A stretch of DNA of 36,374 nt from Pirellulales bacterium. Its GTDB lineage: Bacteria > Planctomycetota > Planctomycetia > Pirellulales > JACPPG01. Below the pieces are notes generated by a model. That model saw only the letters and a program-made list of their open reading frames with translations, was not told where the DNA came from and made no database searches. Location: the NCBI GenBank assembly GCA_036490175.1, contig DASXEJ010000258.1:1-36374 (forward strand), written 5' to 3'. Made by a program: the position numbers and the translations under genes. Shown here piece after piece: positions 14,058 to 32,188 of the stretch. Positions within the stretch are counted from its first letter, which is position 1, and every line of letters starts with the position of its first letter.

Positions 14058-14171
14058 CGCATTAAGCCGGCGCGTGACTAGTGGTGTCCGCTTGACGACC
14101 AAAGCGCACAACTTTCTACCACACGCTGCCTTAGCGTGGGCAATGTTCACGCTCACGTTGCTTTGCTTCAC

Positions 14172-14265
14172 AACGATGGCATAATTTAAATGGGTAGGCG
14201 GATTGCATAATTCGGCCTGCCTCCGTCAGGTTGTTTTCCGTCAGCTTGGCGGTTTTTTTCGCGCC
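14172..14265 (+). ncRNA. possible short terminator-bounded unit
   Basis: CATAAT (14179-14184) with TTGCTT 16 nt upstream is followed about 70 nt later by GGCGG and seven T (14253-14259), then CGCGCC. The stem is less clean than in the following units (CTGCC/GGCGG with a wobble pair), so a terminator is only probable. The region 14058-14735 has no protein gene that I can support. Confidence 0.3.
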
Positions 14266-14308
14266 ACAATGGGCAAGATTTAGGTACTAAAGTATCCAGA
14301 CGATTTAT

Positions 14309-14421
14309 TTGCGGCCGCATCCCGCATCGTCTAGATTCACGTTGTTGCCGGGCCTAACGCGGCGACAGGCCGCCGGGTAATTGGTCTCATAGCTGATTAC
14401 TTGACGGCTTTTTGATGCGCC
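14309..14421 (+). ncRNA. possible small RNA unit with TTGCGG-17-TAGATT promoter
   Basis: TTGCGG (14309-14314) and TAGATT (14332-14337) are spaced 17 nt. Downstream, GGCCT/AGGCC closes a hairpin near 14350-14370, and the unit ends at TTTTT-G-ATGCGCC (14409-14421). The stem directly before the T run is weak. The ATGCGCC following the T run is shared with other units in this zone. Confidence 0.35.
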
Positions 14422-14425
14422 ATTG

Positions 14426-14519
14426 TTGACCGCGCTCGTCGCTCGATTAGATTGTGTGCTGTCGCGCTTCTGGGCGATGAGCAGGCCGCCAGGTATTGAG
14501 CCACCTGGCGGCCGTTTTT
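14426..14519 (+). ncRNA. candidate small RNA, copy 1 of a conserved-5'-end pair
   Basis: The promoter is TTGACC (14426-14431), 16 nt, TAGATT (14448-14453). The predicted start, 7 nt on, coincides with the 15-nt block TGTCGCGCTTCTGGG (14460-14474). A perfect 11-bp hairpin follows, GGCCGCCAGGT with ACCTGGCGGCC (14484-14494 and 14503-14513), then five T. The transcript would be about 60 nt: a conserved single-stranded 5' segment plus a terminator hairpin. The neighbour at 14571 has the same 5' block and spacing but a different hairpin. That pattern of constant 5' end and variable terminator is what a small-RNA family looks like. Confidence 0.55.
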
Positions 14520-14570
14520 GCGCGCTCAGTGATACCGTGCCCCGGGGTACGTTCGTGCCATGTACCATCG

Positions 14571-14662
14571 TTGACTGCGCCGATTGCCAGATTAGACTTG
14601 CCGATGTCGCGCTTCTGGGTGATATGGGGTCGCTGGGTGGATTGGACCTAGCGACCCTTTTT
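14571..14662 (+). ncRNA. candidate small RNA, copy 2 of a conserved-5'-end pair
   Basis: The promoter is TTGACT (14571-14576), 16 nt, TAGACT (14593-14598). The block TGTCGCGCTTCTGGG (14605-14619) begins exactly 7 nt after the -10, as in copy 1. The terminator is GGGTCGCT/AGCGACCC (14627-14634 with 14650-14657) and five T, followed by CATGCGCG. Outside the promoter and the 15-nt block (plus the following YGAT) the two copies differ, so selection on the 5' end is implied. Confidence 0.55.
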
Positions 14663-14735
14663 CATGCGCGAAATTGTTGCCGGCATGAAATGGTTGCTGG
14701 AACTGTCGAGTCTCCTCACTCACTTGGAACCAGCC

Positions 14736-14945
14736 ATGACGCATAAACCTGTAATCGCGCAAGAGTGGACCTGCGATGCATGCAATAAAACAGAACTAAC
14801 GGCTGTCATCGCACTTCCTGAAGGCTGGACAAGCGGAACGCGGGTGTAGGTCGGGGAAATTATCAAAGCGATTGACCTTTGCCAGGATTGTTCTCGGGAC
14901 CGAGCGCAAGCCGTTGAGAATTGCAAGAGACTGATGCGATATTGA
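14736..14945 (+). pseudogene. zinc-finger protein gene with an in-frame TAG
   Basis: The ATG at 14736 gives MTHKPVIAQEWTCDACNKTE, ... ALPEGWTSGTRV, then TAG (14847-14849). The frame continues VGEIIKAIDLCQDCSRDRAQ to TGA at 14943-14945. The two halves supply the two knuckles of one zinc site, CDAC and CQDC, so the intact protein was about 69 residues and the TAG is a nonsense change inside it. Readthrough is possible but there is no specific evidence for it. It follows the second candidate small RNA by about 70 nt. Confidence 0.6.
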
Positions 14946-15033
14946 AATAGGTACTTCGGCCGAGATCTGCAATCGCCTCGACGGGGTCCAGTTGAATTCC
15001 CGTTCCCTACCGATTATTTTAGTACCGCCGACG

Positions 15034-15091
15034 TATGCTAAGGCGTCGACATTGGTCGCCGGTTACACACGAATGCCCGGCGACCTTTTTT
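15034..15091 (+). ncRNA. short terminator-bounded unit with TATGCT box
   Basis: TATGCT (15034-15039) is followed by about 14 nt and a perfect 9-bp hairpin, GGTCGCCGG with CCGGCGACC (15054-15062 and 15077-15085), six T and then ATGCGC. The transcript would be under 50 nt. It could alternatively be the terminator of the damaged zinc-finger gene upstream, though it lies 100 nt beyond that gene and has its own -10-like box. Confidence 0.4.
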
Positions 15092-15411
15092 ATGCGCACT
15101 GCCAGGCCACATTTTTCGCTTGCTTGCGCGCCAGACGTCGCATAGATTTAGCTTCGTCCACCTGGTGCTGACCGTTTGCCACGTGCCTGCGTATTGGTTA
15201 CGCGGGGCGGGGTCCGTCGGCACGCAACTGGGTGCCCCTGCCGGCGGTCCATTTCTATTCAATGGGCGCCTTGCCGATGGCTTTGATGGGCTCTCTCGCA
15301 AACCTAGCTGCCTGGACGTCCCGGAAAGTGCGCCGAGGACCTAACGTGAGCTTCGACTCACGTCGCGATTCGCTGGCATGTCGCCATCGCCACTGAACCA
15401 ATGCGCTCATG
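15092..15411. other. intergenic stretch without a convincing gene
   Basis: Only a weak minus-strand frame near 15089-15180 (GQHQVDEAKSMRRLARKQAK, ending NVAWQCA) looks protein-like, from a GTG start with a poor ribosome-binding site. I do not call it. No repeat or terminator was seen. Confidence 0.3.
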
Positions 15412-15591: not shown

Positions 15592-15784
15592 GGCAACTCG
15601 TCGCAGGCCGGCTCGCGAGCAGGAGAATCTGCTTAAATCCGGAATTCTCCATCCGGTTTGTTGATCGCATGACGCCTTTGGTAATGGGCCGTTCATCTTT
15701 GACGCCTGTCTTTAGACGAGCTTGGCTATACGTCGCCTCCGAAGTATTGATCGGTTCTCGCCGCCCTACGGACAACGTGGGGGT

Positions 15785-15816
15785 CGCCAGGCGCTGCCCA
15801 GCCTGGCGGCTTTTTT
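15785..15816 (+). terminator. intrinsic terminator with the ATGCGCC junction
   Basis: CGCCAGGC (15785-15792), loop GCTGCCCA, GCCTGGCG (15801-15808), then GC and six T, followed directly by ATGCGCC (15817-15823). Upstream, TTGGCT-17-TATTGA near 15722-15750 could make this a short transcription unit of its own. It separates the coiled-coil gene from the next gene. Confidence 0.7.
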
Positions 15817-15842
15817 ATGCGCCATCCAGCAGTTCCGGCACG

Positions 15843-17266: not shown

Positions 17267-17340
17267 GTTTACCAACGGTCGGATTGCCGTCCTGCGGTGT
17301 TCAATCATTTCGGTCTGGGTGCTTAGCGGCTCCCGGCTGG

Positions 17341-17379
17341 CCGCTGGGTAGCGCCCCGAACACTGCCCAGCGGTCTTTT
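17341..17379 (+). terminator. intrinsic terminator with TTGCGCC junction
   Basis: CCGCTGGG (17341-17348) pairs with CCCAGCGG (17366-17373), then TCTTTTA. The TTGCGCC that follows doubles as the -35 box of the next gene. It lies 75 nt beyond the previous terminator, so it either ends a separate short unit (17270-17380) or is a second terminator. No clear promoter was found for such a unit. Confidence 0.6.
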
Positions 17380-17380
17380 A

Positions 17381-17416
17381 TTGCGCCAGCGATTGGTCAG
17401 CGGTACAATAGGTCGC
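17381..17416 (+). promoter_or_regulatory. promoter for leaderless transcription of the 17417 gene
   Basis: TTGCGC (17381-17386), 17 nt, TACAAT (17404-17409), then 7 nt to the ATG. The 20-nt block around the -10 is identical to that before the 1021 gene. Spacing is optimal for a sigma-70-type promoter and places the start site at the ATG. Confidence 0.6.
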
Positions 17417-19491: not shown

Positions 19492-19510
19492 CTTCATGGG
19501 AGAAAAATAC

Positions 19511-20497
19511 ATGATCGCTCTTAACCAACTCGCATTAATCGAAACCGCACCACACCCGCAACCCCTCGTCGCCGGTGATCCGAACGTTGCGGCGGCGGGG
19601 CGGTTAATTGCCTTGTTCGTCCGTTCCGGTAAGAGTGAGCGAACGACCGCAACGTATCTCGGCGCTCTCGATGACTTCGCTGGCTTCATGCAACAGCCAA
19701 CGGCTGCGTTCGCAGTATCCCAACTGCTGGCCAGCGGCCGTGGCCCCTGTACAGCAGTGATTCAGCGATACCTAGTCAACATGAACGATCGAGCCCTGGC
19801 TCCGCACACGCACAACCTGCGGCTCACGGTGCTGCGCAGTCTGCTGGAATTCGCCAATTCTCTGGACATGATTTCCTGGACGGTCCGGGTCAAAGGGATT
19901 CGTGGGGCTGGCAATGTGAAGGATTGCCGCGGTCCGACTTTGGAACAAGTCCGAGCGATGTACGCCCGGATTGTTGGCGATGATGCACCCGCCCGCCGGT
20001 CGCGCGCCGCATTCCGGCTCTTGTTCGACTTGGGCCTGCGTCGCATGGAAGTCCTAGCGATCGATGTCGAGGATTGCGACCTATCGCCCGGTGGCCGTGC
20101 GTGCGTCATGGTGCGAGGGAAAGGGAAGCGGACTAAATCACCGATCACTCTGCCGGAGGAGACGGCCGCGGCCCTCCGTTCGTGGATGGCCGTTCGTGGC
20201 GCACAGCCGGGACCGCTTTTCATTAGCCTGTCGAATTCTTCGAGGGGCAGGAGACTGTCCGGCCAGTCCCTGTTCGTGCTGATTCAGGATCTGGGTCGCC
20301 AAGTCGGGACTAAGACAGGCATTCATCAGATGCGTCACAGCTCAATCACCGCCGCGCTGACCGGAACGAACGGCGACGTGCGACGCGTGCGGTTCCACTC
20401 GAGGCATGCCGACTTGGCGACGATCGCGAAGTACGATGATGCACGGCAAGACATGGCCGGCGGGGTCGCGAAATTGGTTGCGGGGATGCTGGAGTGA
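19511..20497 (+). CDS. tyrosine recombinase (phage-type integrase)
   Basis: The 328-residue protein has an N-terminal SAM-like core-binding domain (TTATYLGALDDFAGFMQQPT through TVLRSLLEFANSLDMISWTV) and a catalytic domain. Visible catalytic residues are Arg in LGLRRMEVLAI (about 177), Lys in VRGKGKRTK (about 206), HQMRH (about 270-274), His in HSRHADLAT (about 296) and Tyr in IAKYDDAR (about 306), so the site is complete. GGGAGAAA precedes the ATG at 19511. It is about 150 nt upstream of a tRNA 3' fragment, the usual attachment position. It differs from the integrase family whose remnants lie in the repeats downstream. Confidence 0.85.
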   Translation: MIALNQLALIETAPHPQPLVAGDPNVAAAGRLIALFVRSGKSERTTATYLGALDDFAGFMQQPTAAFAVSQLLASGRGPCTAVIQRYLVNMNDRALAPHTHNLRLTVLRSLLEFANSLDMISWTVRVKGIRGAGNVKDCRGPTLEQVRAMYARIVGDDAPARRSRAAFRLLFDLGLRRMEVLAIDVEDCDLSPGGRACVMVRGKGKRTKSPITLPEETAAALRSWMAVRGAQPGPLFISLSNSSRGRRLSGQSLFVLIQDLGRQVGTKTGIHQMRHSSITAALTGTNGDVRRVRFHSRHADLATIAKYDDARQDMAGGVAKLVAGMLE

Positions 20498-20650
20498 GGG
20501 ACTACAGACCACTACATCCTTCTGCCTCGAATACAGCGTTTCTTTGTCGGTTTTCAATATTGAGTAATAACACTTGAGAAACTGCCCGAGGTTCGATATT
20601 CTCAAAACAGTCGTCGTTTTTCGTGCTTTTCGGCTGGCTTTGCGTGTGCC

Positions 20651-20920
20651 CTCACACGGTAGAAGTCACAGGTTCGAGTCCTGTAACGCCCATTCGTTGT
20701 AAGCCCCGCCGAAACGAGCATTTCTGTTACCTGCCGATGGTCGGCAGTGCGGCCTTGAAGTCCTCCGAAATCCGGTAGTCTACCGGCTTGCTGATGGCTG
20801 GAGGTGCGCACGATGTCCGCTACCAATTCGGCACGCATTTCATCATAGCGCCGTCACAAGCCAACGGGCCAAGCGGTGGGCACGCTTGCTGGCAAGGACG
20901 GATATCTAGGGCTTTGGGGA
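20651..20920 (+). repeat. tRNA-fragment/integrase-stub repeat, copy 1
   Basis: Begins with a tRNA 3' half: CTCACAC anticodon-loop-like sequence, TAGAAGTC variable region, the T arm CAGGTTCGAGTCCTG, and TAACGCCCA. No 5' half (GGGCGTT expected) is present. It continues through CTGCCGA-TGG-TCGGCAG and CCGGTAG-T-CTACCGG (20772-20786) into the start of an integrase gene. Copies are at 24353-24622 and, shorter, 26771-26875. It is most simply an attachment-site remnant left by an element that integrates in this tRNA. Confidence 0.75.
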
Positions 20921-21340
20921 ACGGCTGCCAGCCGAGCAGAGTACGATCGTTTGATTGGCGAATGGATTTCCAACGGTCGACAGCTCAACGACGTTTCGGA
21001 CAGCTCGATCAATGAGTTGATTGCTGCGTATTTTGAATTTGCTCAAGGCTACTACCAGAAAGACGGGAAGCCCATGGGCGCGATTGCGGGCATTAGAATA
21101 GCTCTCGGGTTTTTGCGAGGTTCTTATGGTCATACGCTCGTGAGCGAATTTGGTCCCCTTGCATTGATCGCTTTACGTGACCGCATGATTGAAGCGGGAC
21201 AGAGTCGTGGCTACGTCAATGGCAATGTGGACCGCATCCGAAGTTGTTTTAGTAGTTTATGGGCATGGCTCGCCGATTCCCGGCTACGACCGACGAACCG
21301 CTCGCGCCGTCTCGATTGGAAACTTGCGATCAGCTACTAG
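20813..21340 (+). pseudogene. truncated integrase with TAG at codon 12
   Basis: After GGAGG, the ATG at 20813 reads MSATNSARISS, then TAG (20846-20848), then RRHKPTGQAVGTLAGKDGYL, GLWGTAASRAEYDRLIGEWI and on to a tRNA-targeting-integrase N-terminal domain (DSSINELIAAYFEFAQGYYQ, GPLALIALRDRMIEAGQSRG, YVNGNVDRIRSCFSSLWAW). Planctomycete integrases of this type normally carry SYRRHK here, so TAG replaces a Tyr codon. Sequence similarity stops near 21275, before any catalytic domain. A shorter stub with the same TAG is at 24516. Confidence 0.75.
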
Positions 21341-21640: not shown

Positions 21641-24013
21641 ATGGTACGAGGGCGTGTCGTATGGCGCAACGTCAGGCGGGGAACCCTATCCGCAACAGCC
21701 GTCTTGGTGATCTTGCTAGGGCCGACAAGCATCGCGCTGGCACAATTCACGTTGCTCAATCAATTCGCTAACGGTGCGGCGAATAGTCCGGGATATTTAC
21801 AGTACCCAATCGACGTCGGCAATGTTGGACCGGACGGACAAGTTCTCGTTGATCAGGGCCAGTTGGGAACAGACGGCATTGTCAAAGCTTACTCAGCGGA
21901 CGGCAGCTTCGTGCAAACGCTCGCGAACGGACCTGTTGGTTCGGAGGTGTCCTTCAACCAGCCGGGCTATTCCGCGATCGGTGCAGATGGGACGTATTAT
22001 GTCTCCGATTTCCTTCACCAAACCGTAGTTGTCGCTGGCACCACTGGCGTCGCGAATCATTACCTGCCGAGCGTGGCCGCTTTCAGTGACCCTGCTGGTG
22101 TCGCGGCCAGCGCTGCCGGCACGCTATATGTCGCCGATAAAGATCACATCGACGTCTACGGCACGATATTTAACGGGACCAGCTATCCGTCCTTGGGAAG
22201 CTTCGGTTCAGCGGGGTCCGGTGCTGGCCAATTTGGCGCCTTTGGCATTGGAGCCATTACGCTCGACTCGACAGGCGCGAACCTATACGTTGCTGACGGT
22301 GGGAATAACCGCATCGACGTTTTTTCGTCCGCAGGCGCTTACGAATCGTCAATCGGCAACTTGTCGGGACCTGGCCAACTCACCTTTCCGACCGGGGTCG
22401 GCGTCAGCGGGACCGGCTTGGTTTTCGTGGCCGATGACGACCCCGGCATAAAGGTCTTTTCATCTGGCGGTGCGTATCAAGAAACGGTCGCGGCCACGGT
22501 GAACGGCCAATCCTTTCACGCGGTTTCTGTCTCGGTGGCACCAACCGGGCTAGTGTATATAGCCGGGCAATTCAGCGGTGGCGGCAGCCTTGGCGCTTTC
22601 CGCTATTTTGATCCTGCTTCGTGGGCTTCGGGCACCAACACTTTCACCAATCCGACAACCGGACCCACAAGCGTGGCGGTGGGCACCGGTCGGTTGCTGG
22701 GCACGAACCTGACACTCGATGCCACCAAGGGCCTGGTGGTCGGCCAGACAACAACGGTCAATAACGGCGGATCGCTCACGTTGGCCGGAGGTACCCTGAA
22801 CACGGGCAGTCTGACGGTCGACGGCACCGCGAGCAACGCCAATTTCACTATGACCGGCGGTAGCCTGACGACCGACGCGATCACGGTCAGCAATGGCGGC
22901 ATCGCAGATTTTGTCGGGCAGCCGCTTTCGGTGGCGCTCGGCGGCACGGTGTCGGTCGCGGATGCCAACTCGCAATTCAAAGTTGAGCAAGGCGCGACGT
23001 TTTCGGCCACGGGGCTGACGAATCACGGCCAGGTTACTGTCGGGTCGAATGCCGATTTCATCGTTTTCAACCCGGTGGTCAATCAGGCCACGGTTAACCT
23101 CAACGGCGGCGAACTCGACATCCGCGGCTTGCTCGGCAACGCGCCAGGTAGCACGATCCAAGGCACCGGCACGCTGAACACGTCCTCAGGACTGTCCAAT
23201 AGCGGCAGCGTGCAACTAACAGGGCAGGCAAGCATATTTGGCACTGTCAACAATCTGGCAACCGGCGGCACGATCGAAGTATCAGGCGCGCAGAGCCACA
23301 CGTTCTTCGGCGGTGTAGTCAACGACGGCACGTTCACGATCGACGCGGGTTCGAGCGCCGCGTTCCAGGGAGGCTACGCTGGTCCGAACGGCACGGCCGG
23401 CACGGGCACGGCCACTTTTGCCGGCGGGCTGTCACCCGGCGTTCCGACCGACATGGCTTTCGGCGGTAGTGTCGCGTTGCAGCATGCAAACGTTACCACA
23501 TTGCAACTGGCAGGCACCACGGCAGGCAGTGGTTACGACAAGATCGACGTCGCGGGACAACTCAGTTTCGATGGCACGCTACTGGTGGCGCTGCAAAGCT
23601 TCACGCCGCAAGTTGGCGAGGTGTTTCACCTGTTTTCGTGGGGAAGCGAGGTCGGCACATTCTCGCAGTTGAGCTTGCCGGCGCTGCCAACCGGCTTGTC
23701 GTGGAACGCAGCGCAGCTTTACACGCAAGGTAACTTGAGAGTGACCATCAGCGGCGACGTGAACGCCGACGGCGTCGTCAATGGACTGGATATAAATCAG
23801 ATCGCCACCAAGTGGTTGGCCACCGGTACTGGTATCGCTGGTGACGCCAACAACGACGGCGTAATCAACGGTTTGGATATCAACGCGGTAGCCTCGAACT
23901 GGCTCCACACGGCGGGCGGTGGTACTGAGGTTGGCGCGGCTGTCCCTGAACCCACAAGCTTCATGATCGCCGCGCTCGCCGGACTCGCCTTACTGGCCCA
24001 CGGACGTCGTTGA
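21641..24013 (+). CDS. NHL/beta-passenger/dockerin PEP-CTERM surface protein, copy 1
   Basis: The 790-residue secreted protein starts MVRGRVVWRNVRRGTLSATA with a signal peptide ending near ALA-Q. Residues about 40-300 form NHL-type propeller repeats (DSTGANLYVADGGNNRIDVF, GVGVSGTGLVFVADDDPGIK). About 350-640 are short beta-helix-like repeats (VNNGGSLTLAGGTLNTGSLT, VSNGGIADFVGQPLSVAL). About 703-755 is a type I dockerin with two calcium loops (GDVNADGVVNGLDINQIATK and GDANNDGVINGLDINAVASN). The end is VPEPTSFMIAALAGLALLAH plus GRR, the exosortase sorting signal. It is a close paralogue of the minus-strand gene at 29819-32188 and is flanked by tRNA-fragment repeats. A role in surface matrix is inferred. 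Confidence 0.85.
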   Translation: MVRGRVVWRNVRRGTLSATAVLVILLGPTSIALAQFTLLNQFANGAANSPGYLQYPIDVGNVGPDGQVLVDQGQLGTDGIVKAYSADGSFVQTLANGPVGSEVSFNQPGYSAIGADGTYYVSDFLHQTVVVAGTTGVANHYLPSVAAFSDPAGVAASAAGTLYVADKDHIDVYGTIFNGTSYPSLGSFGSAGSGAGQFGAFGIGAITLDSTGANLYVADGGNNRIDVFSSAGAYESSIGNLSGPGQLTFPTGVGVSGTGLVFVADDDPGIKVFSSGGAYQETVAATVNGQSFHAVSVSVAPTGLVYIAGQFSGGGSLGAFRYFDPASWASGTNTFTNPTTGPTSVAVGTGRLLGTNLTLDATKGLVVGQTTTVNNGGSLTLAGGTLNTGSLTVDGTASNANFTMTGGSLTTDAITVSNGGIADFVGQPLSVALGGTVSVADANSQFKVEQGATFSATGLTNHGQVTVGSNADFIVFNPVVNQATVNLNGGELDIRGLLGNAPGSTIQGTGTLNTSSGLSNSGSVQLTGQASIFGTVNNLATGGTIEVSGAQSHTFFGGVVNDGTFTIDAGSSAAFQGGYAGPNGTAGTGTATFAGGLSPGVPTDMAFGGSVALQHANVTTLQLAGTTAGSGYDKIDVAGQLSFDGTLLVALQSFTPQVGEVFHLFSWGSEVGTFSQLSLPALPTGLSWNAAQLYTQGNLRVTISGDVNADGVVNGLDINQIATKWLATGTGIAGDANNDGVINGLDINAVASNWLHTAGGGTEVGAAVPEPTSFMIAALAGLALLAHGRR

Positions 24014-24054: not shown

Positions 24055-24622
24055 GGTGCGCACCGTGGCATTGACGATGCGAGAAGCCCACGGCCTCCCT
24101 AACAACACCGCGGTTTCTTCTGATGAAAAGCTGCGGAGGAACATGAGAATCCGAACGGAACCCCGGTCCGGCAAAGCTGAAAAGGCAACGTCGATCTCGC
24201 CTGCCGGTAAACTACCGGATTCGGAATCGGACTACCGCGATTCCCCGCGTAGAAACTGGATTGTTTGCAAGCGTTTGCAATGGGGCAGCTTTGGGATAAG
24301 ATCCCTGAAAAGCACGGAGCTTTTGGGCTTTTAGCGGTTCCGGCAGGATTTTCTCACACAGTAGAAGTCGCAGGTTCGAGTCCTGCAACGCCCATTCGTT
24401 GTAAGCCCCGCCGAAACGAGCATTTCTGTTACCTGCCGACGTTCGGCAGTGCGGGCCTTGAAGTCCTCCGAAATCCGGTAGCCTACCGGATTGCTGATGG
24501 CTGGAGGTTCGCACGATGTCCGCTACCAATTCGGCACGCATCCCATCATAGCGCCGTCACACGCCAACGGGTCAGGCTGTGGTCACTCTTGCTGGCAAGG
24601 ACCGATTTCTAGATCTTTGGAG
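24055..24622 (+). repeat. tRNA-fragment/integrase-stub repeat, copy 2 (extended)
   Basis: The part from CTCACACA at 24353 to 24622 matches copy 1 closely, including the T arm CAGGTTCGAGTCCTG, CTGCCGA hairpin region and CCGGTAG-C-CTACCGG (24475-24489). Upstream, 24055-24352 resembles 26578-26770 of copy 3 (GTGCGCACC start, CCGGTA-AAC-TACCGG at 24204-24218, ACTACCGCGATT, GCGGTTCCGGC), although more diverged. So the full unit is up to about 570 bp and lies between two cargo genes. Confidence 0.7.
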
Positions 24623-24656
24623 AACCCATCGTGACTCAGCACTTTATCGCGATTGA
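24516..24656 (+). pseudogene. integrase N-terminal stub with the same TAG as copy 1
   Basis: The ATG at 24516 reads MSATNSARIPS, TAG (24549-24551), then RRHTPTGQAVVTLAGKDRFL, DLWRTHRDSALYRD and TGA at 24654-24656. It matches the first ~30 codons of the stub at 20813, including the nonsense codon at position 12, so the two descend from an already dead integrase or were homogenised afterwards. Similarity ends about 40 nt before the 3' end of the glycosidase-like gene. Confidence 0.7.
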
Positions 24657-26577: not shown

Positions 26578-26875
26578 ATATGCGCACCCTGCATTGCGGA
26601 CTAGCGAGGAGAGAAGGATTGCAGCCGGTAAGCTACCGGATCGCTGTCTCACACTACCGCGATTTGTCGAGAGAGGCCACTACTGTCTGCGACTATTTGC
26701 AGTACTCTCGACTCGGACTAAAACCCGGAAAAGACCGGAGGATTTAGGCTTTGCGGTTCCGGCGGGATTTTCTCACACGGTAGAAGTCACAGGTTTGCGT
26801 CAGGTAACGCCCACTACTTGTCAGTCTTGCCGAAGCAAGCATTCCTGTTACCTGCCGATGGTCGGCAGTGCGGCC
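26578..26875 (+). repeat. tRNA-fragment repeat, copy 3 (no integrase stub)
   Basis: The tRNA 3' fragment at 26771-26815 carries changes in the T arm (CAGGTTTGCGTCAGG), so it has decayed more than copies 1 and 2. CTGCCGA-TGG-TCGGCAG follows and similarity stops near 26875, before the integrase part. CCGGTA-AGC-TACCGG lies at 26625-26639. The upstream half matches copy 2. It separates the glycosidase-like gene from the HAF-repeat gene. Confidence 0.65.
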
Positions 26876-27273
26876 CGCTCCCCAAGCGATAAAACCGTAC
26901 ATACCGCTTTGCGCCTCCGAATGGCACTCCGCGCCATGCCAAAACTCGTCAACACTCCCCCTCGCTATCTAGGTCGCAATGTCAGCAGTGAGGCCATCGT
27001 CAGAATCGGCGGGGTCGAATGTTGCGCCGCGCGAGGAAATACCCGCTCGAACCGAATCCCACAAGCCGTGACCTCCAGGCCGCCGGTACGCTCCCATGCG
27101 ACCGTAGGAAGTTCCCAATATCTCGCGAATTCCTTTGTATCTAACATGTTGCAGGACTACTTTACAGGCATGTCTTGCCAGGCGGGTTCTGTGGTCGAAC
27201 GCAAACACCTGGGCTTGCGTTCTTTCATCATGGCGGCATTTCTGTCGTTTTGGGCCGACGAAGGAGAAGTGTC
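26876..27273. other. intergenic stretch, no supported gene
   Basis: Minus-strand frames around 26965-27208 have protein-like fragments (EFARYWELPTVAWERTGGLE; also SYGRMGAYRRPGGHG in another frame) but no start or motif that I can defend; it may be decayed coding DNA. GGAGAAG at the end serves the next gene. Confidence 0.3.
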
Positions 27274-28335
27274 ATGAAGTCGCGCGTCGCGTTTCTTGCG
27301 GTTGCGTTGGCGAACTCAGCGATATCTCTTGCCGCGGACTATACCGTCACGGATTTGGGAACACTCGGTGGCTCCGCGTCGAGCGCCCGCGCAATTAGCG
27401 ACAGCGGATTGGTCACCGGTGCGATCACAATCGGAAACCAGTCGCACGTTTTCTTGTACGACGGCACGATGCACGATATCGGGACGGGGGTTGGCGACGG
27501 CGTTAACGACGCCGGTATGGTGACGGGGACGACGCCTGGCGCCTCGCCGGACGATTCGTCGCGCGTCTTCCTGTACGACGGCACGATGCACGATCTGGGC
27601 CCGGGCGCGAGCTACGGCATCAACAACAGCGGTGAGATCGTGCTGGACGGTATCCTTGGACAGGGGTTTCTCTATTACGGCGGATCGATGCACCCCATGC
27701 CGCTCTTACCCGGGGGGATAAACTATGCCATCCCGCTGGCGATCAACAATAGCGGCGAAGCCGCCGGCGTCGGTGACGCGCCGCTCGGATACAACCCAGG
27801 AGCTGAGCTGTACGCCTTTCTGTATGACGGGACGACGATGCACGACATCGGAACGCACGGACAGACTCCTGACGCGGTGCTGTTCACGAGCATCGCGTAC
27901 GGCCTGAACGGACATGGAGATGTTGTGGGAACGGATACGGCTCTATCGACCGGCGGCGCGGGAATTAGCGGCGGATTTCTCAACATTGGCGGCGTCGAGA
28001 ATGCCATTCCGGGGATTGCCCCGACCGGGGTCAACAATAGCGACATTGTGGTCGGGACGTCGACAACCGGGGCGGCCATCTATACCCTGGGCGGCGGGCT
28101 GGTGAATCTTGATGCGCTCATTGCTCCTTCGTCGGGATGGCACATCACGGCTGCCGCCGCAATCAACGACGCCGGACAGATTGTCGGATCCGGCAGTTTC
28201 GACGGCGGCCCGCTGCACGCCGTGCTGCTAAATCCTGTCCCCGAGCCATCCACTATCGCCCTGGCGGGCTTCGGGGCGCTGGCGATGATGTTGATTCGAT
28301 GGATCGGGCGCCAAGGACATTGCACGTCACGATGA
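27274..28335 (+). CDS. HAF-repeat PEP-CTERM secreted protein
   Basis: The 353-residue product has a signal peptide (MKSRVAFLAVALANSAISLA) and then tandem HAF-type repeats (YTVTDLGTLGGSASSARAIS, VFLYDGTMHDIGTGVGDGVN, VFLYDGTMHDLGPGASYGIN, AINNSGEAAGVG, AINDAGQIVGSG). Each unit pairs a beta-rich xFLYDGTMxDIGT with AINxxGxIVG. It ends VPEPSTIALAGFGALAMMLI and a basic tail, the PEP-CTERM signal. GGAGAAG lies before the ATG at 27274, which is preferred over the in-frame extension from 27175. It converges with the next gene, their stops overlapping by 9 nt. Confidence 0.85.
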   Translation: MKSRVAFLAVALANSAISLAADYTVTDLGTLGGSASSARAISDSGLVTGAITIGNQSHVFLYDGTMHDIGTGVGDGVNDAGMVTGTTPGASPDDSSRVFLYDGTMHDLGPGASYGINNSGEIVLDGILGQGFLYYGGSMHPMPLLPGGINYAIPLAINNSGEAAGVGDAPLGYNPGAELYAFLYDGTTMHDIGTHGQTPDAVLFTSIAYGLNGHGDVVGTDTALSTGGAGISGGFLNIGGVENAIPGIAPTGVNNSDIVVGTSTTGAAIYTLGGGLVNLDALIAPSSGWHITAAAAINDAGQIVGSGSFDGGPLHAVLLNPVPEPSTIALAGFGALAMMLIRWIGRQGHCTSR

Positions 28336-29838: not shown

Positions 29839-32188
29839 CATACAGCGTCGCGCTTGCCAGCAGTGCGAGCGCGGCGGTCGATGGCTCAGGCACTTGCGTG
29901 GCCGTTCCACTGCCGGCTGCGTGCAGCCAGTTGGTGGCCACAAGGTTGATGTCGAGACCGTTGACGACTCCGTCGTTGTTGGCGTCGCCGGCCACGCCCG
30001 TACCGGAGGCCAACCATTTGGAGGCAATTAGATTGATGTCCAACCCGTTGACGATCCCGTCGCCATTGACGTCGCCGCTGATCGTCACACTTAAGGTGCC
30101 GGTGCTGTAAAGCTGCGATGCGTTCCAGCTTAGGCCAGCCCCGAGTGCCGGCAAATTCAACTGCGAGAATCGACCGGTTTCGCTTCCCCATGTGAACAAA
30201 TGAAACTTGTTGCCGACTTGCGGCGTGATGCCGTCAAGCACGATCTGCAGGGCGCCGTCGAAGCTGAGCTGGCCGGCCACATCGATCTTGTCATATCCGG
30301 TTACCGGTGTCGTGCCCGCCAATTGCATAGTTGTCGTGTTCGAATGCTGTAGCGTCACATTTCCGCCGAAGCTCATATCGACCGCAACATTCGGCGAAAG
30401 TCCGCCGGCGAAGACCGCCGCGCCTGTGCCGACGGTGCCGTTTGGTCCGGAATACCCACCCTGGAATGTGGCGCTCGAGCCGCTGTCGATTGTGAACGTG
30501 CCGCTATTGGTGACGGCGCCGTAAAACGTGTGGCTTTGCGATCCCGACACTTCGATGTTGCCCCCAGTCGCTAGGTTGCTAACCAAACTAAACACGCTCG
30601 ACTGGCCGGTGAATTGCACCCGGCCACCGTTGGCAAGGCCGGCGGTCGTGGTGAGCGTGCCGCTCCCTTCGATCAATGAACCGGGCCCGTTGCCGAGCAG
30701 GCCTCGAATGTCCAGTTCTCCGCCGTTGAGTATCTCGGTGCCGAGATTCACAGAACTGTTGAACACAATTAAATCAGAATTCGGCCCGACGGTGACGCTG
30801 CCGTTGTTGGTCAAGCCGGTTGTGGAAAACGTCGCTCCCTGCTCGACCTTGAGCTGCGAGCTCACGTCTGCGACCGAGACCGTGCCGGCAAGCGACACAG
30901 AGAGTGGCTGACCGACGAAGTCAGCGATGCCGCCATTGCTGATTGTAATCTTGCTGGCCGTCAGGTTGCCTCCGGTCATCGTGAAGTTGGCACTGCTGGC
31001 GGTACCGTCGACGACCAGGGCGCTCGTATTCAGCGTGCCGCCTGCCAACGTTAGTGATCCGCCGTTATTGACCGTCGTGGACTGTCCTACGACCAGCCCC
31101 TTGGTGGCGTCGAGTGTCAGGTTGGTTCCCAGCAACTGGCCGCTGCCGACTGTAACACTCGTCGGTCCAGTATTGGCGTTGGTGAATGTATTCGTGCCAG
31201 ACGACCAACTGGCGGGGTCGAAGAAGCGGAAGGCTTCGATATCGAGGCTGCCGCCCATGAAAGATCCTCCGGCATAGATCATTCCGGTCGGGGCAACCGA
31301 AACCGAAACCGGGTTGAAGGTCCGGCCATTCACCGTCGCGGCAACGGTTTCCAGGTATGTGCCGCTGGTCGAAAATACCTTGATGCCAGCATTGTTGTCC
31401 GTGGCGTATACCAGGCCCGTCCCGCCGACTGCGACTCCTGTGGGCTGATTAAGTTGACCTGGGCCCGAGGCATCGCCGATCGACGAAACAAATGCTCCGG
31501 CGCTTGAGAATACTTCAAGCCGATTATTGCTGGGATCCGTGACGTAGACGTTTGCACCCGTGGCGTCGAGCGCCAAGGCACCCACATTTGACGGGCCAAT
31601 TTGACCAGGTCCGCTGCCGGGCGAGCCGAACGACCCTATGAGTGGATACGATGTTCCGTTGAAGGTCGAGCTATAGACATTAATCTGCGTCTTGGAAGCG
31701 GCATACACCAGCCCCGTTTGACTGACGACCACTCCGGTCGGTGTGATGATCCCGCCGGCGGATGGCAAGGAGCGTACGAAGTTGCCATTGGGATCCACCA
31801 CGGCGATCGATTCGTTGGAATTCTCGGATAGATAAGATGTCCCGTCAGGTCCAATCGCCGAATAAATCGGATGCGCGACGTTGCCCGCTCCCACGGTATG
31901 CAAGAAACTTCCATCTGCGGCATATGCGCTTGCCGCGTTGCCGAACGGGCCTTCGGTCAGGACGATCTCACCGGCTGGTCCGACGCTACTCACGAAATAA
32001 GGATATTGCAAATATCCAGGGCTGTTCGTGGCGCCGCCCGCGATCTGATTCAGATAAGTGAATTGCGCGTGCGCTCTGTCGCCGCTGGTGACGAGCAATA
32101 CATTGGTCAAGATGGCTGCCAAACAAAACCGCGTCGCGGTGCCGCTACATTGGTGTAAGTTTATCAATGTGACCTCGGCAAGTTGCAA
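29819..32188 (-). CDS. NHL/beta-passenger/dockerin PEP-CTERM surface protein, copy 2
   Basis: The ~789-residue product repeats the architecture and much of the sequence of the gene at 21641: NHL-like repeats (DATGANVYVTDPSNNRLEVF, VAVGGTGLVYATDNNAGIKV), beta-helix-like repeats (VNNGGSLTLAGGTLNTSALV), a dockerin (GDVNGDGIVNGLDINLIASK, GDANNDGVVNGLDINLVATN) and VPEPSTAALALLASATLYAR plus RRRS. The signal part ends GDRAHA-Q. No ATG precedes the signal, so the start is TTG (near 32188) or another weak codon, and expression may be low. It is inverted relative to copy 1 and flanked by its own direct repeats. Confidence 0.8.
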   Translation of the reverse strand: MQLAEVTLINLHQCSGTATRFCLAAILTNVLLVTSGDRAHAQFTYLNQIAGGATNSPGYLQYPYFVSSVGPAGEIVLTEGPFGNAASAYAADGSFLHTVGAGNVAHPIYSAIGPDGTSYLSENSNESIAVVDPNGNFVRSLPSAGGIITPTGVVVSQTGLVYAASKTQINVYSSTFNGTSYPLIGSFGSPGSGPGQIGPSNVGALALDATGANVYVTDPSNNRLEVFSSAGAFVSSIGDASGPGQLNQPTGVAVGGTGLVYATDNNAGIKVFSTSGTYLETVAATVNGRTFNPVSVSVAPTGMIYAGGSFMGGSLDIEAFRFFDPASWSSGTNTFTNANTGPTSVTVGSGQLLGTNLTLDATKGLVVGQSTTVNNGGSLTLAGGTLNTSALVVDGTASSANFTMTGGNLTASKITISNGGIADFVGQPLSVSLAGTVSVADVSSQLKVEQGATFSTTGLTNNGSVTVGPNSDLIVFNSSVNLGTEILNGGELDIRGLLGNGPGSLIEGSGTLTTTAGLANGGRVQFTGQSSVFSLVSNLATGGNIEVSGSQSHTFYGAVTNSGTFTIDSGSSATFQGGYSGPNGTVGTGAAVFAGGLSPNVAVDMSFGGNVTLQHSNTTTMQLAGTTPVTGYDKIDVAGQLSFDGALQIVLDGITPQVGNKFHLFTWGSETGRFSQLNLPALGAGLSWNASQLYSTGTLSVTISGDVNGDGIVNGLDINLIASKWLASGTGVAGDANNDGVVNGLDINLVATNWLHAAGSGTATQVPEPSTAALALLASATLYARRRRS

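Follow-up and report, generated by a model that had tools for sequence, protein, structure and literature searches.

The question raised by this locus is what two neighbouring promoter–terminator units that share an identical 15-nt block encode, and through which part any product would act. The window analysed here, 36,374 nt, is the entire contig C258 of a 393-contig assembly, and ~1.8 Mb of the same genome were sampled for sequence-level work. The earlier note had described two promoters of the form TTGACC/T-16-TAGAT/CT (14426–14453 and 14571–14598), an identical block starting 7 nt past each −10, and different terminators with perfect stems, all of which were exact in position and motif. 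The block, TGTCGCGCTTCTGGG, lies at 14460–14474 in copy 1 and at 14605–14619 in copy 2, with 6 nt separating it from the −10 both times. The terminator stem of copy 1 (14484–14513) has 11 bp and is followed by GTTTTTG, and that of copy 2 (14626–14658) has 13 bp and is followed by a T-run. A self-comparison of the window showed that the likeness between the copies spans 64 nt at 73% identity; by our own arithmetic, an exact 15-mer repeat within ~200 nt has a chance expectation of ~0.007 in 36 kb.

An exact search of the whole 7.58-Mb genome found the 15-nt block twice, both times in the window. A third match, on C388 with one mismatch, lacks a comparable promoter or terminator nearby, and the block was rejected as a family marker. 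The note had not recognized the block as one half of a hairpin: on folding, in both copies TGTCGCGCTTCTGGG supplies the 5′ arm and the loop of a short stem, here called P1, which immediately precedes the terminator hairpin, P2. The 3′ arm of P1 reads GCGAUG in copy 1 and GUGAUA in copy 2, and both differences preserve pairing. Five further units of like anatomy had also gone unnoticed; counted with the pair, up to seven P1+P2 units occupy the + strand of the window between 14158 and 17384, four of them in tandem, with folding z-scores for the seven of −2.9 to −5.2. No gene lies between the tandem units (14158–14669). The features are given below with scores from two covariance models, R1 and R2, for which 60 kb of unrelated sequence reaches 15.2 and 17.4 bits, respectively.

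14158–14263, + strand: unit u1, with TTGCTT-16-CATAAT, P1 at 14192–14222, P2 at 14223–14252 and a T-run; z −5.2; R1 14.2 bits, within the background range.
14309–14419, + strand: unit u2, with TTGCGG-17-TAGATT, P1 at 14343–14367, P2 at 14369–14408 and TTTTTGATGCGC; z −4.3; R1 10.0 bits (weak).
14426–14453, + strand: promoter of copy 1 (u3), TTGACC-16-TAGATT (14426–14431 and 14448–14453); spacing the same in homologues.
14457–14483, + strand: P1 hairpin of copy 1, the block at 14460–14474 forming 5′ arm and loop; P1 z −2.1, whole unit z −4.0.
14484–14519, + strand: P2 terminator hairpin and T-run of copy 1, with loop AUUGAGCC within AGGU/ACCU; R1 17.2 bits, E 0.003.
14571–14598, + strand: promoter of copy 2 (u4), TTGACT-16-TAGACT (14571–14576 and 14593–14598); aligns with TTCACA-16-TAAATT of the copy on C121.
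14604–14625, + strand: P1 hairpin of copy 2; 3′-arm changes relative to copy 1 (C to U, G to A) preserve the pairs.
14626–14662, + strand: P2 terminator hairpin and T-run of copy 2, then CATGCGC; R1 25.9 bits, E 6.5e-6; blastn to C121, E 1.1e-9.
14992–15096, + strand: unit u5, with TTGAAT-17-TATTTT, P1 at 15029–15048, P2 at 15054–15085 and TTTTTTATGCGC; z −2.9; R1 17.0 bits, R2 25.5 bits.
15722–15821, + strand: unit u6, with P2 at 15782–15811, CUGCCC still in the loop and an uncertain promoter; z −3.7; R2 22.4 bits.
17302–17384, + strand: unit u7, with P1 and P2 at 17339–17375 and no clear promoter; z −3.2; R1 22.4 bits.

Both copies have the layout of a wider family: P1 lies directly 5′ of P2, the distance from the end of the −10 to P2 is 30 nt in copy 1 and 27 nt in copy 2 (27–38 nt in the family), and the P2 apices, AGGU..ACCU and GGGU..ACCU, are of the family type. 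Copy 2 is a family member since it scores 25.9 bits against the background given above and resembles a canonical copy on C121 end to end, promoter included (74% over 100 nt; blastn, own genome). Copy 1, on its sequence likeness to copy 2 and by anatomy, is then placed in the family as well. The P2 loops are AUUGAGCC in copy 1 and GGAUUGG in copy 2; as neither keeps the canonical UCCUGCCCC, we call the two diverged paralogues rather than canonical members. Window units score 8–26 bits in the covariance models against up to 15–17 bits in the unrelated 60 kb, and since u1 and u2 fall near or below that background, their membership rests on anatomy and position. A blastn search of the region in relatives gave no match beyond its own genome.

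Some of the small genes of the window recur in a related island on C60, together with a similar array. There, the unit ahead of the corresponding small gene has a P1 of different sequence whose arms also pair without mismatch (GUUGCC..GGCAAC), an argument for selection on P1 pairing. The small ORF after copy 2 (14664–14849) is shorter than its C60 counterpart (L006 ~1212–1420), so the window version may be truncated. The region that holds the array is one of short orphan genes, and a tyrosine recombinase gene (19496–20497; Phage_integrase, E 2e-14) is found downstream of it. Other repeats are present in the window as well: direct repeats of 127 and 172 nt with 82–91% identity (20629–20922, 24331–24625 and 26750–26876), a 1331-nt inverted repeat that is 73% complementary (22595–23925 and 29904–31234, two related long stretches on opposite strands) and an ORF (27175–28335) with internal repeats at 117-nt spacing (27441–27516, 27558–27633 and nearby).

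In the family at large, the terminators on other contigs share a common apex, CAGGTTCCTGCCCCACCTG. The apex 17-mer AGGTTCCTGCCCCACCT occurs exactly 10 times in the own genome, and 12 times with up to two mismatches compared with once for a reversed control. The constant part is the terminator loop UCCUGCCCC, in which CUGCCCC is 92–96% constant among 49 model hits, a figure that carries some circularity, since the loop had served to find the members in the first place; model hits with altered flanking loop bases still retain CUGCCCC. Covariation supports the P2 stem, with two-sided changes at 9 of 13 pairs among 35 members (score 0.568 versus 0.199 when shuffled) and at 10 of 13 pairs among the 49 model hits (0.587 versus 0.235 ± 0.015). 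Across the family the sequence of P1 varies freely and its pairing is preserved, 10 of 11 pairs showing two-sided changes among the 14 members of one group. Compared with shuffled sequences, P1 folds better in the majority of 54 members (mean z −2.6), and inspection of the sequences shows that it is often capped by the stable tetraloops GAAA, UUCG or CUUG. A 6-mer in P1 is complementary to the loop in 10 of 65 members, compared with 2.0 in mononucleotide shuffles, suggesting that P1–loop contacts within or between copies may occur.

The members also carry promoter-like sequences, the best score per member being 8.19 versus 7.41 in shuffles (sd 0.83; n = 54), and in 35 of 54 members, counted by hand, the best −10 ends 27–38 nt ahead of P2. 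The predicted RNA would be about 65–75 nt long. Within 34 nt after the loop, TGCGC is found in 42 of 65 members, canonical copies included, compared with 3.9 expected. In the window it follows the T-run of P2 at, for example, 14657–14669, 15085–15097 and 15810–15822, and 7 of the 10 strong terminators found there by script have a T-run and then GCGC. The T-run with its CATGCGC tail, tried as a defining element, pointed to the family but was insufficient, being present behind some ordinary terminators too.

These data bear on what the earlier note had proposed, namely a small-RNA family present in several copies, each having a promoter and a terminator of its own, recognizable by a conserved 5′ end and a free terminator and acting through that end as a seed. 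The family itself appears to be upheld, with the signature inverted. A lack of additional copies with like promoter spacing, named in the note as a refutation, was not what the search showed: further copies keep the 16/17-nt promoter spacing and the distance from −10 to terminator but not the 15-nt block, which the rest of the genomic copies lack. What speaks for action through the 5′ end is that the block is identical in copies 1 and 2; given that the block lies mostly inside P1, that words complementary to it are not significantly enriched at ribosome-binding sites (1,036 predicted starts) and that the conservation of the family is located in P2, we consider such a mode of action highly improbable.

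In a rival view, the units would act as intrinsic terminators or insulators that separate the small genes of the island; P1 and the promoters would then be incidental features, and the many copies a product of module shuffling. The genome does contain strong ordinary terminators, units stand between some of the same small genes in the C60 island, and the window units score low in the models. Compensatory changes that preserve P1, a promoter at a set distance ahead of P2, the tandem units with no intervening gene and a canonical constant loop that is unnecessary for termination all argue against this view, and we regard it as unlikely.

To define the distribution of the family, genomes were searched with both models. 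R1 detected it in 45 of 57 genomes (own, same genus and same order), with ~12 strong copies in the own genome, and R2 in 31 of 49 genomes of the same order. For the remaining orders of the class, ~149 genomes searched with R2 gave no match; the single phylum-level match outside the order, in G099, was rejected because the loop is absent and both strands match. The apex 17-mer was also found with P1/P2 anatomy in many planctomycete contigs of the GTDB collection, those with the family carrying the names Pirellulales, Planctomycetia and Planctomycetaceae. Exact 17-mer matches in non-planctomycetes are mostly coding, are without the P1/P2/T-run anatomy and look like chance. Tandem arrays occur in two further genomes, with five copies in 1.2 kb in one (G014, C364) and three in 0.5 kb in the other (G024, C188).

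Many canonical copies lie in two recurring neighbourhoods. In the first, the sRNA stands between an M20 peptidase gene and nuoA–nuoC; in the second, it adjoins an unnamed conserved gene in a setting of xylose-isomerase-like, exonuclease/phosphatase or DJ-1 genes. The simplest reading of this synteny is vertical inheritance of the canonical sRNA. Since ~12 canonical copies are located upstream of nuoA on the same strand, and since the T-run of copy 2 is immediately followed by the ATG of a short ORF (14664), the units might instead act in cis on the gene that follows, as attenuators or leaders. The distance from canonical copy to nuoA varies from ~150 to >600 nt, however, which argues against a leader, and the neighbours are different at the second recurring locus. 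In the arrays units precede another unit, and many copies have no common downstream gene. We therefore hold a cis-acting role of the units to be quite improbable, although it may apply at the locus upstream of nuoA.

Two virus-related occurrences of the loop or hairpin apex were noted. On a viral contig with a DnaB helicase gene (L186:118–138 and 326–520, IMGVR_UViG_3300048592_000600), the canonical loop forms the tip of a long hairpin, and this phage-borne hairpin lies ~190 nt upstream of a gene for CsrA, a global RNA regulator. The family's hairpin apex, with identical flanks, is shared by the own genome (G000:C119:74610–74634) and an IMG/VR contig (L187:8918–8942); this pair has no clear P1 or T-run and may represent either a provirus or a degenerate copy common to both.

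Considering the computed family, its structure, its order-wide distribution and recurring synteny, the array, and a canonical copy homologous to copy 2, we think it probable that copies 1 and 2 are tandem genes of an Hfq-independent, trans-acting sRNA family, multicopy in a Pirellulales-like order, that acts through a C-rich terminator loop. Transcription, action in trans, the type of target and the role of the divergent loops are modelled as follows. Each gene, consisting of a sigma-70-type promoter, P1 and a 13-bp P2 with its U-run, would be independently transcribed into an RNA of the predicted length. P1 would serve as a stabilizer, free in sequence and kept in pairing, and the canonical terminator loop UCCUGCCCC would be the effector, pairing in trans and without Hfq with G-rich mRNA sites or other RNAs. 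Obvious candidate targets would be GGCAGGA-type sites close to the Shine–Dalgarno sequence. The window copies would be diverged paralogues arrayed inside an island of small genes, and their changed loops may point to other targets, decoys or decay.

Trans-acting pairing through the loop appears to be the best explanation because a constant, unpaired, C-rich terminator loop is also found in LhrC of Listeria and because a search of 20 genomes of the order, positive controls included, detected Hfq in none. Trans-acting pairing in general is likelier than a Shine–Dalgarno-type mechanism in particular, for which we put the chances at slightly short of even. Words complementary to the loop showed no significant enrichment near the 1,036 predicted starts, and no consistent loop target was found near nuoA. 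More tentatively, a single vertically inherited sRNA with a fixed loop might have been copied into island arrays with diversified loops in an Hfq-free system. If so, each array would be a bank of short RNAs, presenting differing pairing loops on a shared promoter–P1–terminator chassis.

The earlier note knew of no described family with the 15-nt block, and none was found to match here: no Rfam 15 family scored above its gathering threshold, permissive Rfam scans returned only RcsR1 (23.5 bits against a threshold of 60) and nothing credible, and no planctomycete sRNA family of the two-hairpin, C-rich-terminator-loop kind was found described in the open papers searched. Neither Rfam nor these papers yielded a described conserved sRNA family for this order. 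Strong covariation, a fixed candidate effector loop and adjacency to nuo (complex I) together offer a concrete entry to planctomycete post-transcriptional regulation.

Known systems share some traits with the family. The 6C RNA of Actinobacteria and the UCCC-type sRNAs likewise have C-rich unpaired motifs, but 6C carries C runs in two loops and gave no Rfam match here. Cyano-1 (RF01701) may be the same kind of RNA as Yfr2. RsaE is of the UCCC type (PMC4132741). The Yfr2 family of cyanobacteria is clade-wide and multicopy (up to nine copies) with a short constant motif (PMC6778093), as is the family described here, but yfr2 genes occupy unconserved loci (PMC6778093) in a different phylum, and no Rfam match was obtained. 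The Rhodopirellula-1 motif, compared by its published description, also comes from planctomycetes; it is listed as occurring in Proteobacteria too and as possibly cis-regulatory, and no Rfam accession is given for it (PMC2864571, Table 1). Listeria monocytogenes LhrC1–5 are multicopy RNAs with two stem-loops and a CU-rich motif in their loops, the terminator loop among them; mutations in the terminator loop and in loop A impair binding of a target at its Shine–Dalgarno sequence, and Hfq is unnecessary for stability or for binding of lapB mRNA (PMC4132741). LhrC belongs to another phylum, measures 111–114 nt and has near-identical copies with three UCCC sites, whereas the planctomycete RNAs would have 65–75 nt, one C-rich loop and a P1 of free sequence. 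The two are alike in form, both being multicopy, having two hairpins and displaying a C-rich loop on the terminator.
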